Part shown: in pieces, positions 3,882 to 49,334 of the stretch
Layout: the number at the start of each line of letters is the position of its first letter
How positions within the stretch are numbered: the stretch's first letter is position 1
From: a virus
Length of the DNA: 49,334 nt
Reading direction: 5' to 3' (one strand)
IMG/VR virus record: IMGVR_UViG_3300015360_000007
Coordinates: 1 to 49,334 of that record
Notes under the pieces: generated by a model
What the model was told of the DNA's origin: nothing
Databases searched by the model: none
The model's input: the letters and a program-made list of their open reading frames with translations, nothing else
Program-made: the position numbers and the translations under genes

Positions 3882-4064
3882 ATGAGAATTAATACACAAA
3901 AAAAGTTTAAAATTTTAATGGACACATTTTCACATAAAGAAATACTAGAAGAAATTTATTTAGACAGTTGCGTAGTTAATAAGGATAATTTTGATATTGA
4001 CGCAACTATTGATGATCTGTTTGAAGAATGGGTTATTAAAGCAAAATTAGGAGATCTTCAATGA
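3882..4064 (+). CDS. Hypothetical protein (60 aa)
   Basis: A soluble, mildly acidic small protein, predicted helical (SHKEILEEIYLDSC and IDDLFEEWVIKAKLG). GGAGG lies eight bases upstream of the ATG and the stop overlaps the next start. No motif or family recognised. Confidence 0.6.
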   Translation: MRINTQKKFKILMDTFSHKEILEEIYLDSCVVNKDNFDIDATIDDLFEEWVIKAKLGDLQ

Positions 4065-4345
4065 GAAAAATCACTTCACTGGACATAATAATAGAACTAG
4101 TAATTCTGACCATAAGCGTGGCATTGCTGTATGAAGTGCACATAAATTTAGTTTATGCGGTTTTGTTGCAGATAGGGCATAAAGCGTATATACTTATAGA
4201 CACCCGGCTAGCCATGATTAAAAGGGCTAAAGATATTGCAGACATGTTGAAACAGTTGGATATGCGAGATTTAGGAAACGGAATGTATTTATCAAAAAAG
4301 GAAGAGGACGATGTACAATCCGATGATGGTAGTGACAAAAAGTGA
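4061..4345 (+). CDS. Membrane protein with a cytoplasmic helical tail (94 aa)
   Basis: Residues 8-38 are hydrophobic (IIIELVILTISVALLYEV and LVYAVLLQIG), one long or two short membrane segments. An amphipathic helix and an acidic tail ending in DDGSDKK follow. The next gene starts inside its last 35 bases in another frame. It could belong to the lysis group upstream, but has no recognised family. Confidence 0.55.
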   Translation: MRKITSLDIIIELVILTISVALLYEVHINLVYAVLLQIGHKAYILIDTRLAMIKRAKDIADMLKQLDMRDLGNGMYLSKKEEDDVQSDDGSDKK

Positions 4346-4523
4346 CGGCTACTATACCGTCATGTGCAGAACTAAGATCTACTTGATCAAGCGCGTAAAT
4401 GAAAACCATTTAATCCTTTATTTTGATCTTAAAGAAATTAAACTAACTTCTTTTATTAATGCTTTTCTAGCTCTAGATATTTTATTGACAGATAGATCAA
4501 AGAAAAACGTCTACCTAAACTAA
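4311..4523 (+). CDS. Hypothetical protein (70 aa)
   Basis: The ATG has GGAAGAGG upstream and overlaps the end of the preceding gene. The sequence alternates hydrophobic and polar residues, suggesting a small alpha/beta fold, with a hydrophobic LTSFINAFLALDIL stretch. It is the last gene before the putative origin; its stop codon touches the first iteron. Confidence 0.6.
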   Translation: MYNPMMVVTKSDGYYTVMCRTKIYLIKRVNENHLILYFDLKEIKLTSFINAFLALDILLTDRSKKNVYLN

Positions 4524-4745
4524 AATCTGTTTACCTTTTAATTAAAATTTGCTCACTTTTAGCCAAAATCTGTTTACATAAACTAAACTAAAATCTGTTA
4601 CCTTTAGCTAAAATCTGTTTACCTTTAGATAAAATCTGTTTACCCACAACCACTTCCCTTAAATAAAAATTGTTTACTGCTGCCTTGCTTTTACAAAATA
4701 AAATCTATTCACTTAAATCAATTTCTCCAAATAAAATCTATTTAC
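4522..4745 (+). repeat. Array of nine iterons (AAAATCTGTTTAC), candidate origin
   Basis: Copies of a 13-base element start at 4522, 4544, 4565, 4590, 4610, 4631, 4665, 4700 and 4733. Four copies match AAAATCTGTTTAC exactly (4522, 4565, 4610, 4631), one lacks a T, and the others differ at one to three positions. The first six are about 21 bases apart (two helical turns); the last three are about 34 apart. All point the same way. Such same-face arrays are typical binding sites for a replication initiator. The array sits between coding genes, directly before an A+T-rich stretch and the primase-helicase gene. Confidence 0.8.
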
Positions 4746-4940
4746 TAAACAAATCTTAATTGCGGGTGACTTTTGCCTCGTCTAGTAAAATTAGGGGGTT
4801 ACCACTTAGGGAGATTTTAATTATACGGGAAAGGGGTACCTATTGCTGTAGAATAAACACAAAAAAAAAAAAAAAAGTTTATTATTAATAATTATATAAT
4901 ATATATTGATATTTATTTTTTTTTTAGAGTGCGTAATATA
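4746..4940. other. A+T-rich stretch next to the iterons (possible DNA unwinding element)
   Basis: After a G-rich patch (4756-4850, including GGGGGTTACC), bases 4859-4926 are nearly pure A and T. They include a run of about 17 A, alternating AT, and a run of T. No credible gene is present. In iteron origins such a stretch next to the repeats is where strands first open, so it is read here as part of the candidate origin. The homopolymer length may be unreliable. Confidence 0.55.
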
Positions 4941-4953
4941 TACAGCAATACCC

Positions 4954-4982
4954 TTGCCTAAACAGTAGAAGTCATATATAAT
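4954..4982 (+). promoter_or_regulatory. Sigma-70 promoter of the primase-helicase gene
   Basis: TTGCCT (4954-4959), 17 bases, TATAAT (4977-4982). The start would be near 4989, giving a leader of about 45 bases before the ATG at 5035. Transcription would leave the origin region toward the replication genes. Confidence 0.75.
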
Positions 4983-5034
4983 ATCTGTAAGTCCAAAGTC
5001 CACTAACTAAATTTTATTGAACGGAGATACTAAC

Positions 5035-7044
5035 ATGGAGACTTACCGCGTTTCTGAACTAACAGGACAACGAGATGACGAAGGGAATATTCTAGATCTG
5101 GGAAAAGTTAACGAAATTGAAGTAGATTTTGATAAATTAAAAAGCCACATTATCACCGCTTCCTGGTCGCCGGCAACCTTTACGGGAAATAGGCGCCTGG
5201 CAGTCGATTTTAAGGCGGCTAGCATGATCGGGCTGGACATTGACGGGGGTATGAGTTTAAACGCCGCAAAAGCCATTGCAGAGCCTTATAAGCATATCAT
5301 AGCCCCGACCCGAAATAACCAAAAAGCAAAGAACGGAATTACGTGCGATAGATTTCGAGTAATCTTGTTTACTTCGCAGCCCATTACAGAAAACGTAACT
5401 TTTAAAAATACTTGGTTTTATTTACAGGAATTGTTTAAAAACGCCGTAGACCCCGCGACTAAGGATTCCTCTAGGTATTTTTTTCCTTCTACCTCTATTT
5501 TTTCCTCTAATCAAGAAGGGTTATTGATTACCCCCATTACATCAAAAGTAGAATTTAAAGATAAAGCAAAGTTGCTAAAGCCCCCGACCGAGCCTGTACT
5601 TGACGATAAGTTAAAACGAGTTAACCCCGCCGCCCTAATACAGTTAGCTTCCGAGCCACCTGCAGATGGCTCTTGGCACGTACAAATGCGCAGACTATGG
5701 GGCTGGTTACGAGATGCCAGTTTAAGTGAGAAAGAAATAGTGCAGATAAGTGAAGATTATTTATCGAAATACGGCATGAGCCTTGACCCGACAGATCTTA
5801 TCCAAATATCTGATACCTGCAATAGGTGGCAAATCAAAGGCGGACCTGGAAAAAAGATGACCGCCAAAGACTTTTTCAACAAAGCCAAAGAAGATGTGAT
5901 TGCCGTATTGAAAGATAAGTTTGTCGTAGTAACCGAAATTAGGGATAAACAAGCGGGTAAAGTTGAAGCAGCGATAACTGGAGAAAACGAAGTAAAGCTG
6001 GTATCCGCCGACGCGGTGCAAGACTACTATGCTGAACAGGCAGTAGGAACAGATTACGAACACAGTTCCGTAGAATATAAGAAGCTGTGTGATACATGGA
6101 GAAGTCAGACCTCGTCCTTGGGCGAGCCCGTTATTGTATCGCTTAACGATCGAAAAACTTTAGCCTATAAACATTTAACAATCGATATAAACGACGGACC
6201 TACGCCTTTATTTGATAAAATTATGAGTGCTACCGCAAACGCTCTGCCATTGCAAGCTTTTTTGTGGTCTGTGCTAGAAAAGAAAAGTTACAATCAGCAG
6301 TTATTAATTTGGCACGGAGCAGGGGGCGATGGAAAGTCTAGTGTAATGAGATTAATGCAAATACTACTAGATTCATCATATGCAGGCGCATCAAGTAAAG
6401 ATCTTGAGAGCTCGCACTTTACAGCAACTCTTATTGGTAAACGGTTTTTAGTGTTTAGTGACGAAAATAACCCGAAGTTGCTTATGTCAGGCGCAATTAA
6501 AAAGTTTACTGGGGAAGATAGCCATTTTATTAACCCTAAAGGCAAACCAGGATACTCTGCTAAACTTCCGCTCAAAGTTGCTATTCTTACTAACCACGAG
6601 CCCGAGTTTGACTCTATGAAAGCCAATTTAAGGCGTATTATCTACTGCCCCATAGTCCAAGAGATAGATAGAGTTAAAGATGCCAATTACGCGGAAAAAC
6701 TCGAGGCAGAGCTTCCACATGTTTTATTTAAATGTCGAGAAGCGTACAATACTTTGTGCCCTGAGCACGAAATGATTCCTTGTGATTATGGGATGGCAGA
6801 ATCAATAGTCGATCAGTATTCGAAAACAGAAAGAAAATTTATTGCCAAATACCTAGAGATAGACAAAGACAGTTGTATTACTAATCAAGAATTTATTGAA
6901 CTATGCGACAAGATTGACCCGACGTCTGGCAACGATAAGATGAAGAAAATTAAAGTATATTTAACTAATAGGCATAAAGTGTTTGCTAGATCAAATGAGC
7001 AAGGCGTAGTGTGTTTATACGGAATTAGATTAAAAACGCGATAA
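5035..7044 (+). CDS. Primase-polymerase / SF3 (D5-like) helicase fusion
   Basis: This 669-residue protein combines priming and unwinding at the fork. The N-terminal part looks like an archaeo-eukaryotic primase/PrimPol: L-D-I-D-G (Asp68, Asp70) would be the metal-binding motif and S-R-Y-F-F-P (146-151) a nucleotide-binding motif. The C-terminal part is a D5-like superfamily 3 helicase. It has Walker A HGAGGDGKSS (427-436), Walker B FLVFSDE (471-477), the sensor Asn520 in L-T-N-H-E-P, and basic residues at 533-534. ATG 5035 is chosen because GGAG precedes it; a TTG at 5017 is in frame but unsupported. Its place beside the iterons suggests that it, or a partner, initiates replication. Confidence 0.88.
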   Translation: METYRVSELTGQRDDEGNILDLGKVNEIEVDFDKLKSHIITASWSPATFTGNRRLAVDFKAASMIGLDIDGGMSLNAAKAIAEPYKHIIAPTRNNQKAKNGITCDRFRVILFTSQPITENVTFKNTWFYLQELFKNAVDPATKDSSRYFFPSTSIFSSNQEGLLITPITSKVEFKDKAKLLKPPTEPVLDDKLKRVNPAALIQLASEPPADGSWHVQMRRLWGWLRDASLSEKEIVQISEDYLSKYGMSLDPTDLIQISDTCNRWQIKGGPGKKMTAKDFFNKAKEDVIAVLKDKFVVVTEIRDKQAGKVEAAITGENEVKLVSADAVQDYYAEQAVGTDYEHSSVEYKKLCDTWRSQTSSLGEPVIVSLNDRKTLAYKHLTIDINDGPTPLFDKIMSATANALPLQAFLWSVLEKKSYNQQLLIWHGAGGDGKSSVMRLMQILLDSSYAGASSKDLESSHFTATLIGKRFLVFSDENNPKLLMSGAIKKFTGEDSHFINPKGKPGYSAKLPLKVAILTNHEPEFDSMKANLRRIIYCPIVQEIDRVKDANYAEKLEAELPHVLFKCREAYNTLCPEHEMIPCDYGMAESIVDQYSKTERKFIAKYLEIDKDSCITNQEFIELCDKIDPTSGNDKMKKIKVYLTNRHKVFARSNEQGVVCLYGIRLKTR

Positions 7045-9837: not shown

Positions 9838-10344
9838 ATGAGAATGCATACCGAAGATGAGCTTCAAGCTATAATTAAAGAAGGAAATTCGCATGACATG
9901 GAAACTATAGCTAAGTACGTGTTTTCCGATAAGTTTTACGTTAATTTTGCAAGTAGTTTAAGGCAGTTTATTAACCGTGCTGAGTTTGTCCCTTTAGCAG
10001 ACCTAATCCAGTACTCATTTTCTCGTTCCCATTCTGCTAATTGGTATTTTGAGTTAACTAAACTAACTAACCGAATTAAGCGGGATCCTGATTTGTTCTT
10101 ACTAAACAAACTTATTATTGCTTTTGTCCTAAACAAACCGCATAGTGTTAATTTCAGTTGCGACATAATTAAAACTATGATAGGCTACAATAATACGGAG
10201 TTAGACCGGGATTTAGTGCTTAAAGTATTTAGCCAGCCGCATAGTGCCAAATGGCAAAAATACTTAAAACCAGTTATAGCCCGAGCTAATCCGGAGTTAT
10301 TAGACTTAATACAAAGGAGTTCAAATGTTTCCGATATCAAATAG
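9838..10344 (+). CDS. Four-repeat HEAT-like helical protein
   Basis: The 168-residue protein is built from about four helical units of 32-37 residues, each marked by a signature: F29-S-D-K-F-Y-V-N-F, F61-S-R-S-H-S-A-N-W, L98-N-K-P-H-S-V-N-F and F131-S-Q-P-H-S-A-K-W. The spacing suggests an alpha-solenoid like HEAT repeats, which usually bind protein or DNA. It lies between nucleotide-metabolism genes and the ssDNA-binding candidate. GGAG precedes the ATG. I do not recognise a named family. Confidence 0.6.
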   Translation: MRMHTEDELQAIIKEGNSHDMETIAKYVFSDKFYVNFASSLRQFINRAEFVPLADLIQYSFSRSHSANWYFELTKLTNRIKRDPDLFLLNKLIIAFVLNKPHSVNFSCDIIKTMIGYNNTELDRDLVLKVFSQPHSAKWQKYLKPVIARANPELLDLIQRSSNVSDIK

Positions 10345-16922: not shown

Positions 16923-17420
16923 TTACGTTATGCGCTTAAAATGCGCTTGACAAATAGTATTAATGTCTCTAGGTCCAATAGAATCCAGATCAAGTGCGGT
17001 ATCTTGGTGTAAATAATCTTTAATTACATAGCCGACAAGTTCAGAGCAGACTTGGGTGTCTCTGCCGTCGCTAAATGGATTTTTTTTAAGCCCAAATATG
17101 CGCTGGATTGCAATACCCAAAATCTGATTATTGCCGTAGTCAGTGCCGGCATTAGTTAAACAATATTTTAATAAGCGGCTATACGCCTCGTTACTAATTT
17201 CGGTTTCATATTCCTCAATAACTAAAGCTTGTTTATCAAAATTTACCTTAGACATAAAGTTAACCATGGTGTGAGATGCCTGATACACTATGTCCACGCC
17301 TACGCTGGTTGTCCACGATAGGTACACATGACTGTATTTTGTTCCCTCACTTAGTCTAATTAACCAAGATCCGGGCTTAAACCATGCTTTAGGGCGGCTA
17401 AACCCAATTTTAATAATCAT
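16923..17420 (-). CDS. Permuted papain-like (NlpC/P60 superfamily) cysteine peptidase
   Basis: The 165-residue protein has the arrangement of permuted NlpC/P60 (YiiX/LRAT-like) proteins: the histidine motif comes first (K-Y-S-H31-V-Y-L) and the catalytic cysteine late (V-C125-S-E-L-V). Phage members may cut amide bonds in peptidoglycan or host lipids, or act as virion-linked amidases. AAGG precedes the start. It is the last of the series of virion-type genes, so it may be carried in the particle or act late. Confidence 0.65.
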   Translation of the reverse strand: MIIKIGFSRPKAWFKPGSWLIRLSEGTKYSHVYLSWTTSVGVDIVYQASHTMVNFMSKVNFDKQALVIEEYETEISNEAYSRLLKYCLTNAGTDYGNNQILGIAIQRIFGLKKNPFSDGRDTQVCSELVGYVIKDYLHQDTALDLDSIGPRDINTICQAHFKRIT

Positions 17421-29420: not shown

Positions 29421-30962
29421 TTATTTTACCAGATAACCGGCTTTTTTTAAAGCACCAAGTGCTTGATCTCGGGTTAATCCGGGATTATTTTTCATAAGTT
29501 GATCAACCTTGCCTGTATTTGCATCAACTGGTTTGCCGTATTCTTGTACAACTAATTTAGCAGGAACTAGACTATCTTGACTAAGTTTAGTATACTTGGC
29601 ATTAACTATTTTTTGTTTCTCTATTTTATTATCTGCTAATTTATCAGCTTGTAACATAAAGTCCGTTCGCTGCTTATCGTTTAGTCGAGTACCTTGCATA
29701 GCTTTGTTATAAGCATTTCTTATTTGGTCAGGAACGCCAGCCGCATTTTGAGCAGTAGAAAACTCGCCCTCACGAACTGTAGATCCGGGATCAAGAATTT
29801 TCATGTATGAATAAACTAATCCTATGTCCGCAGCGGGCGAATCTTGGACAGCAAATTTCTTTATCTGACCATGACTAGACAATACTTCTTCAGTGCCTAG
29901 TTCTTTTGTTTGTTTATTATACTCTTGTCGCAAACTTTGAGCTCGGTCCATAGTTTCTTTAGACAGACTTGCTGTATCAACATCAGCGCCAGACTGTATG
30001 TTCTTATTCATCAGACTTTGTTGCTGAAATGCTTTGGCTTTTTCAATTTTATCTTGAGTTGCCACATTGAAAGCAAGCATATATTTCTGCTTTCCTTGTT
30101 CTAAGTCGGCAATAGCAGTGGCAGCTCTTTCTTTAATTTCGGGGGCAGCGTATTGAGACGCCTTTTTTTCAATTTGTACTTTTAAAATGTCTACCGCCGC
30201 CATTTGTGCGGCTGCATCTGCTTGGGCGCCGTCACCAAATTTCTGCCTCATCATTTGATATAATTGGTACTGATTTTGAACGCCTTCTTTTTTAGTAGCT
30301 ATATCATTTCTTTGAGAATCGATATCGCGCTCAATCAAAAGATTTAGCCCATCTAACATTGGGTTTGAGCCTTTTTTACCGCCTCCGGTACTAAATCCTC
30401 CTAATAAAATTCCTATACTAGTAGCAATTTTGTTACCGGTGCTCATATTGTTCCAAAGTCTACCTGGATCAATTGTACTTTCAGATAACGTTTTAGTCAG
30501 GGTAACAAAATCATCTTGGGCTTTTGCAAAACTGGCTGCATCTTGAGCATTTCTTTTTCGAGTAGCCTCTGCGCGCTCTTGTTGGGTATTTTCCATTTTA
30601 TCGAACATGGCGGTTTGCTCAGTGGCTTTTTTAATGCCCGAGGCAGCGCCTGCGACTTCAGCTTGCTTTTTTAATTCATATCCAGCTTCAATGCCGGCAA
30701 GATTTTGTTTTATCTGCTCATTATTTAATTCGCCGGCTTCAGCTAAGGTGCTTGGCATTTTTGGACTTACAGGCGCCACACTCGGCATTGGCATAGAAGG
30801 CGCAACCGGTGCAGGAACTGTAGCCATAGGAGCTGTAGCCGGTGCAGCCATAGGAGCTTCAACCGGTCTAGCCATAGGTCCAGAATAAGGGGCAGGCGAT
30901 TCAGGAAGTCCGGTCATAGGCACTTGTTCAAATAATTGTTCGTCAGTTAATCCTGTAGCCAT
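29421..30962 (-). CDS. Candidate ejection/internal virion protein (513 aa)
   Basis: A proline/alanine/methionine-rich N-terminal region with P-M-A repeats (residues about 20-70) precedes a helical, Gln/Lys-rich body with a short hydrophobic patch (IATSIGILLGGFSTGGG). The C-terminus ends in a helical D-Q-A-L-G-A-L-K-K-A-G. AGGGG precedes the start. Grouped with its neighbours as an internal virion protein on composition and position. Confidence 0.55.
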   Translation of the reverse strand: MATGLTDEQLFEQVPMTGLPESPAPYSGPMARPVEAPMAAPATAPMATVPAPVAPSMPMPSVAPVSPKMPSTLAEAGELNNEQIKQNLAGIEAGYELKKQAEVAGAASGIKKATEQTAMFDKMENTQQERAEATRKRNAQDAASFAKAQDDFVTLTKTLSESTIDPGRLWNNMSTGNKIATSIGILLGGFSTGGGKKGSNPMLDGLNLLIERDIDSQRNDIATKKEGVQNQYQLYQMMRQKFGDGAQADAAAQMAAVDILKVQIEKKASQYAAPEIKERAATAIADLEQGKQKYMLAFNVATQDKIEKAKAFQQQSLMNKNIQSGADVDTASLSKETMDRAQSLRQEYNKQTKELGTEEVLSSHGQIKKFAVQDSPAADIGLVYSYMKILDPGSTVREGEFSTAQNAAGVPDQIRNAYNKAMQGTRLNDKQRTDFMLQADKLADNKIEKQKIVNAKYTKLSQDSLVPAKLVVQEYGKPVDANTGKVDQLMKNNPGLTRDQALGALKKAGYLVK

Positions 30963-44483: not shown

Positions 44484-44777
44484 TTATCGAGGTCTTTTAA
44501 TGTCTTGAATCGATATGCCCGATTTGCGCCCTAATTTTTCTGCCTCAGTAGCAGCGACCTCATCTAGGGCTTGTTGAGTAACTATGTGGATAGCACTAAT
44601 GTTTGTAAACGGCACAAGAACGTGGTCAGTTTCAGACCTGATCTCGACGCACATAAGCTTTTCTAGAAGCTTTAATTCTACTATTTTCTTATTGCCCGCT
44701 GTTAGTGTGCTGAAAAATGTTTCTGATCGTTTGTCAAATGAGATTGCTTGATAAGTACGGATTGCCTTGATGTTCAT
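44484..44777 (-). CDS. Hypothetical protein upstream of terminase (97 aa)
   Basis: A beta-rich first 60 residues (KIVELKLLEKLMCVEIRSE and VLVPFTNISAIHIV) suggest a small barrel, followed by a helix and basic tail ending in IKRPR. AAGGGA precedes the start. Its closeness to the terminase gene makes it one possible small-subunit or packaging cofactor, but it has no helix-turn-helix. No family recognised. Confidence 0.55.
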   Translation of the reverse strand: MNIKAIRTYQAISFDKRSETFFSTLTAGNKKIVELKLLEKLMCVEIRSETDHVLVPFTNISAIHIVTQQALDEVAATEAEKLGRKSGISIQDIKRPR

Positions 44778-47492: not shown

Positions 47493-47567
47493 TGTTATTG
47501 CTCCATAGAATTTATTACTTAAAAGACCCAATGTTATTGGACATTTATAGACATGCGTTATGTTATT

Positions 47568-47714
47568 AGCACTATGGGCTGTATTGTTTTAGCACTATGG
47601 GCTGTATTGTTTTAGCACTATGGGCTGTATTGTTTTAGCACTATGGGCTGTATTGTTTTAGCACTATGGGCTGTGTCGTTTTAACACTATGGGCTGTGTC
47701 GTTTTAACACTATA
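47568..47714. repeat. Tandem 23-base repeats, six full copies plus a partial
   Basis: Units start at 47568, 47591, 47614, 47637, 47660 and 47683, with a partial copy at 47706. The core is CACTATGGGCTGTRTYGTTTT. The last two copies share changes (AA for AG, TGTC for TATT), so they diverged together. The array fills most of the otherwise gene-free stretch 47493-47808, upstream of the packaging genes. A packaging, operator or second-origin function is possible. Confidence 0.9.
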
Positions 47715-47786: not shown

Positions 47787-47838
47787 GAATCTTTTTTATT
47801 TACAAGAGCTAAAGTGGCGAATCTTTTTTATTTACAAG
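47787..47838. repeat. 20-base direct repeat at the end of a gene
   Basis: GAATCTTTTTTATTTACAAG occurs at 47787-47806 and 47819-47838. The second copy is the end of the coding region at 47809; the first lies beyond its stop. It looks like a recent short duplication of a gene end. Confidence 0.85.
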
Positions 47839-48789: not shown

Positions 48790-49320
48790 ATGAAAACAAT
48801 TTTACTTGCAATTTTAGCTACTACTACTACTAACGTAAAAGCATTTAGCCCCGAGCAAAAGCTAATGGCGGCTTATAAGGCAGACCGGACTGAGGCACAA
48901 TTAGTTTACAATCAAATTTTAGTTAACCGACCAAAAATTAAAGTGCTTTATGCTCAAGCTTTGGCTAATGAAATTCACAAGCAGTCTAAAAATTATAAGA
49001 TTAGTCCTAAAATTATTTCGGCTATATTAGCTGTCGAGTCTATGTACGACCACACTAAAGTAAATAAACATTCTGGAGACTATGGGTTGAGTCAGATTAA
49101 TTATAAAACTATTAAGGCATATAAACTAGACAAAGCTAGATTAAGTAACGATATAGCCTATTCAATAAAATCTGGTGCATTAGTATTAAGTTACTTTCAC
49201 AAACGTTATGCACACAAGGAAAAGCATTGGTACGCTAGGTACAACGTAGGAACTAGAGAGGGCGCTATTAAATCAAAAACAGCTAAAAACTACATAAAAC
49301 TTGTGTCTAAGTATTTATAA
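48790..49320 (+). CDS. Secreted SLT-type lytic transglycosylase
   Basis: The 176-residue protein starts with a signal peptide (T-I-L-L-A-I-L-A-T-T-T-T-N-V-K-A, cleavage after A-like residues near 18). The soluble lytic transglycosylase core has the catalytic Glu in I-L-A-V-E-S-M-Y-D, then G-D-Y-G-L-S-Q-I-N and W-Y-A-R-Y-N-V-G, the standard signatures. It would cleave peptidoglycan glycan strands in the periplasm, for wall weakening during infection or lysis support. Its last 109 bases are repeated at the start of the window. Confidence 0.88.
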   Translation: MKTILLAILATTTTNVKAFSPEQKLMAAYKADRTEAQLVYNQILVNRPKIKVLYAQALANEIHKQSKNYKISPKIISAILAVESMYDHTKVNKHSGDYGLSQINYKTIKAYKLDKARLSNDIAYSIKSGALVLSYFHKRYAHKEKHWYARYNVGTREGAIKSKTAKNYIKLVSKYL

Positions 49321-49334
49321 ACTTGTGTATAAAC
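49212..49334. repeat. Terminal direct repeat, right copy
   Basis: Identical to bases 1-123. See the left copy for interpretation; it joins the end of the window to its start within the transglycosylase gene. Confidence 0.95.

Follow-up and report, generated by a model that had tools for sequence, protein, structure and literature searches.

The alpha protein of phage P4 uses a winged helix to bind its repeats, and stem-loops rather than iterons have been proposed as origins for the pRN1-type PrimPol-SF3 proteins (PMC4234260). In the PICIs, iterons flank an A+T region (PMC6092414). We analysed a complete virus record of 49,334 bases, referred to here as the window, and propose that positions 4522-5034 are probably the main replication origin of this phage, bound by the 669-aa protein encoded directly downstream. 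This reading is based on a non-coding repeat array that exceeds chance, the adjoining A+T maximum, the gene order, the SF3 and PrimPol homology of the protein, and the box clusters found elsewhere. The site is a convincing prediction of an origin of a known kind, as used by phage P4 and plasmids; the locus shows the general layout of an iteron origin, with direct repeats, an A+T-rich element and an adjoining initiator gene. An iteron origin beside a PrimPol-SF3 gene had been suggested in the initial annotation and stands as the best explanation, backed by the clusters of six phages, except for the part that invoked two initiator arrangements, for which we found nothing apart from the spacing itself.

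Genome map and organization of the locus

The genome map is circular, with a length of about 49,211 bp. The first 123 bases of the record equal its last 123 (1-123 and 49212-49334) and fall within a coding gene. A second contig (L002), which comes from a different sample and is 99.2% identical, crosses this junction without duplication, so the 123 bp represent an assembly overlap. Rightward genes from about 0.3 to 16 kb encode lysis and replication functions, and leftward genes from 16 to 48.7 kb encode structural and packaging functions. Searches of the window for RNA families and tRNAs returned none. We also observed a collagen-like tail fibre gene at 282-1214 that carries 18-bp and 36-bp repeats, and a second non-coding direct array at 47561-47713 with a 23-bp unit, TGTTTTAGCACTATGGGCTGTAT. 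The near-identical contig has three copies of this unit and the window seven, with unchanged flanks; thus, the copy number varies or one assembly collapsed. Beside this array lies an exact 20-bp direct repeat, GAATCTTTTTTATTTACAAG, at 47787-47806 and 47819-47838, 32 bp apart.

On the circle, the cumulative GC skew is lowest at 49,073 and highest at 17,058; gene direction changes at both points, and the third-position skew shows no switch at 4.5-5 kb. The skew, which had been put forward as a check on the site, therefore neither supports nor refutes an origin there.

The nine same-direction 13-base elements described earlier (Table 1) were confirmed, one copy being 12 nt long. They start at 4522, 4544, 4565, 4590, 4610, 4631, 4665, 4700 and 4733, with start-to-start spacings of 22, 21, 25, 20, 21, 34, 35 and 33 bp; four of the nine are exact, the copy at 4590 is the short one, and that at 4544 has three mismatches. 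When up to three mismatches are allowed, the largest family of 13-mers in the 515-bp region has 11 members, compared with a maximum of seven in 300 dinucleotide shuffles, which hold no comparable family. Genome-wide, eight of the ten plus-strand sites with up to two mismatches fall inside the array. No long ORF covers the array, which is non-coding, begins at the stop codon of ORF 4311-4523 and ends some 290 bp upstream of the start codon at 5035. The reported whole-turn spacing holds for copies 1-6, which lie close to two helical turns apart, but not for the last three, where 34 bp correspond to about 3.2 turns. Because copies 7-9 have this spacing and are among the divergent copies, the simple reading is that a core group is accompanied by weaker, outlying sites. 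The array itself does not fold (z 0.43), and we therefore rejected the idea that the repeats act as a structured nucleic acid.

Downstream of the array, what had been described as an A+T-only stretch is actually 93% A+T with two internal G (4859-4930), yet it marks the 70-bp A+T maximum of the genome, and 38 of 40 A+T is reached nowhere else. The region of the inverted repeat enclosing this stretch folds better as single-stranded DNA than shuffles do (z -2.2; 4/200). A promoter-like site followed by the primase-helicase gene is present as annotated, although sites of this quality are about equally frequent in shuffles.

Table 1. Features of the predicted origin and the adjoining gene (window coordinates)
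Feature	Position	Strand	Details
Array of nine direct 13-bp repeats	4522-4745	+	Consensus (CT)AAAATCTGTTTAC(C)
Copies 1-6, spacing 20-25 bp	4522-4643	+	CTGTTTAC type; copy 2 divergent, copy 4 without one T
Copies 7-9, spacing 33-35 bp, divergent	4665-4745	+	AATTGTTTAC, CTATTCAC, CTATTTAC
Inverted repeat, left arm	4842-4850		ATTGCTGTA; encloses the A+T-rich stretch; sequence, fold
A+T-richest 70 bp of the genome (66/70), candidate unwinding element	4855-4924		Genome-wide composition scan
Inverted repeat, right arm	4941-4949		TACAGCAAT; directly 5' of the -35 box; sequence, fold
Promoter-like site	4954-4982	+	TTGCCT-17-TATAAT, 10/12; by itself not significant
669-aa PrimPol-like/P4-family SF3 helicase protein, likely initiator	5035-7044	+	GGAG at 5023 before ATG

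The downstream primase-helicase

The assignment of the downstream gene to a PrimPol-SF3 helicase is supported by homology to P4 alpha, DUF5906 and the PrimPol of phage ctKpZ937. Residues 388-608 match the NCBIfam P4-family primase C-terminal model TIGR01613 (E 1.6e-17; 63 bits, below the curated cut-off of 108.7 bits), and residues 427-526 match Pfam DUF5906 over its cut-off. P4 alpha aligns with the protein at 28% over 157 aa (E 3e-8), residues 21-168 align with the ctKpZ937 PrimPol at 32% (E 7e-21), and primases of several contigs are also matched. A low-confidence structural model (pLDDT 48.7) has fold matches in the PDB to the NrS-1 and SaPI5 primase-helicases, as well as to poxvirus D5/E5 and papillomavirus E1. 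The AlphaFold models (pLDDT about 48) are too poor to show a C-terminal winged helix, and no sequence match to the C-terminal domain of P4 alpha was found. Additionally, in PrimPol motif II, the histidine of relatives (PSTSH or TKSHQK) is an asparagine (TRNNQK; residues 92-97, 5308-5325). A single base change could explain this replacement, which may have left the primase modified or without activity.

We infer a mechanism in which the 669-aa protein is the binder and replication starts at 4522-5034. The protein would bind the nine 13-mers via its C-terminal region, through a winged helix, and, once bound, would oligomerise and melt the adjoining A+T-rich stretch. It would then load as a hexameric helicase and allow priming, after which the family-A polymerase of the phage (11011-13263) would carry out extension.

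Box clusters in other phages

Searches of the viral and genome collections found no close relative of the primase. When pairs of the 13-mer were sought, exactly or with degeneracy, the viral contigs had none and a Clostridiales contig had a single isolated pair. At the nucleotide level, the matches in phages were all weak and A/T-rich, and the plasmid collection contained nothing related beyond short primase matches. Since the collections searched contained no relative carrying the 4522-5034 region, with the near-identical contig stopping short of it, phages with related helicases or primases were examined for box clusters.

Non-coding clusters of short boxes were present in six of seven such named phages, namely P4, ctKpZ937, Scapp, R23.1, RS10pmA and Henu15, and absent from Nonnen. 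The P4 clusters are the annotated ori and crr. In ctKpZ937 (MW202458), ten GGTAACAGCA boxes at 9976-10309 form two opposed groups directly 5' of a P4-family helicase gene, and this region is likely an unannotated origin. Scapp and R23.1 each have six boxes just 3' of the helicase gene, and the seven boxes of RS10pmA lie away from it. In Henu15, also away from the helicase gene, seven AAAGTGCAAC / AAACTGCAAC boxes make up each of two non-coding clusters that resemble one another (30248-30555 and 44543-44753); they lie 14 kb apart and recall P4 with its ori and crr. The relatives G004 and G032 have an excess of GTAC boxes in the gaps that precede the corresponding genes; G021 has no gap there. 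Box orientation is mixed in P4 and the other phages, whereas the window copies all point one way. Of the 83 fragments that served as controls (1.54 Mb), only three attain a score of 8 in the masked scan. Because the window itself was used to tune the scan, the controls were fragments, and R23.1 drops out in the masked version, we regard the clusters as support, short of proof.

The boxes can also be compared by sequence. The core of the window box, TGTTTACC (three copies), is one base apart from the P4 alpha type 1 repeat, TGTTCACC; on the minus strand, the window unit reads GTAAACAGATTTT and several copies have a G before it, and the P4 repeat is GGTGAACA(G). By a rough post hoc estimate, such likeness of an 8-mer core has a chance of about 1% per comparison, and whole units with flanks are not significantly alike in a shuffle test (p 0.24). 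This core likeness is a suggestive lead. The boxes of P4 (GGTGAACAG), the window (GGTAAACAG), ctKpZ937 (GGTAACAGCA), RS10pmA (AGTGAAACA), Scapp (AAAGTGCAA) and Henu15 (AAAGTGCAACA) may be grouped around RGTG-AACA. It is conceivable, if doubtful, that one box family around this motif is recognised in common by the P4-family helicases that free-living tailed phages encode, irrespective of the attached primase. If true, sequence could reveal where many uncharacterised phages have their origins.

Alternative readings and comparison with known systems

Among the points that count against the origin reading, the skew is silent at the site, the copies run one way, the P4-core match is post hoc, and Nonnen has no cluster. 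The repeats could instead be operators through which a phage or host regulator controls the promoter of the replication genes, with no origin involved, as their position upstream of the promoter-like site and the primase-helicase gene would allow. However, the array ends about 210 bp short of the promoter, nine sites next to the A+T maximum of the genome exceed what an operator needs, the equivalent P4 clusters lie within the annotated ori and crr, and those of Scapp and R23.1 are 3' of the gene; we therefore consider this explanation clearly unlikely. It is rather unlikely that the site is an origin whose boxes are bound by another protein, either the product of a small upstream ORF in 3882-4523 or a host factor, which hands over to the helicase. 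Two small ORFs with no assigned function (4061-4345 and 4311-4523) do directly precede the array, but the region contains no DnaA or IHF consensus site save one loose DnaA-like 9-mer, and P4 alpha binds its own repeats (PMC4234260).

An origin elsewhere, with the 13-mers as a secondary site, appears highly unlikely. One candidate would be the 23-bp tandem array, which is non-coding, comprises 6.6 copies with 96% matches and is near plasmid iterons in unit length. Nevertheless, it lies among late genes in surroundings of just 61-65% A+T, with no recognised replication gene nearby, and its copy number is not kept in the near-identical contig. For such phages, the start of replication could be tested concretely and at little cost on the probable origin at 4522-5034 and on the matching clusters of the phages with related helicases.

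Among known systems, the alpha, ori and crr arrangement of satellite phage P4 shares with the window a P4-family SF3 helicase and a cluster of short boxes, and the one-base difference between the box cores is suggestive. P4 alpha has a Toprim primase, whereas the window protein is PrimPol-like, and the P4 boxes are of mixed orientation in two clusters, with crr 3' of the alpha gene, in contrast to a single same-direction cluster 5' of the gene. Phage ctKpZ937 has a related PrimPol (32%), a P4-family helicase (27%) and its boxes before the helicase gene, but its primase and helicase are encoded separately and its boxes form opposed groups.

The organization had been called plasmid-like in the initial annotation; it is equally P4-like and satellite-like. 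Theta-type iteron plasmids likewise combine direct repeats, an A+T-rich element and an adjoining initiator gene. The Rep proteins of these plasmids are not known to be helicases, whereas the window encodes an SF3 helicase and has no Rep-family match. pRN1 ORF904 and the NrS-1 polymerase also carry PrimPol and helicase in one chain, and the C-terminal region of NrS-1 resembles the 669-aa protein by fold in the low-confidence model; the pRN1 origin is a stem-loop without iterons (PMC4234260), whereas the window has iterons and an inverted repeat. The pri-rep-ori modules of SaPIs and Gram-negative PICIs are alike in their primase-helicase, iterons and A+T-rich region (PMC6092414), and the SaPI5 primase-helicase resembles the window protein by fold in the same low-confidence model. 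In those islands, two iteron sets flank the A+T region, whereas the window has one set on one side, together with an inverted repeat that encloses the A+T element.
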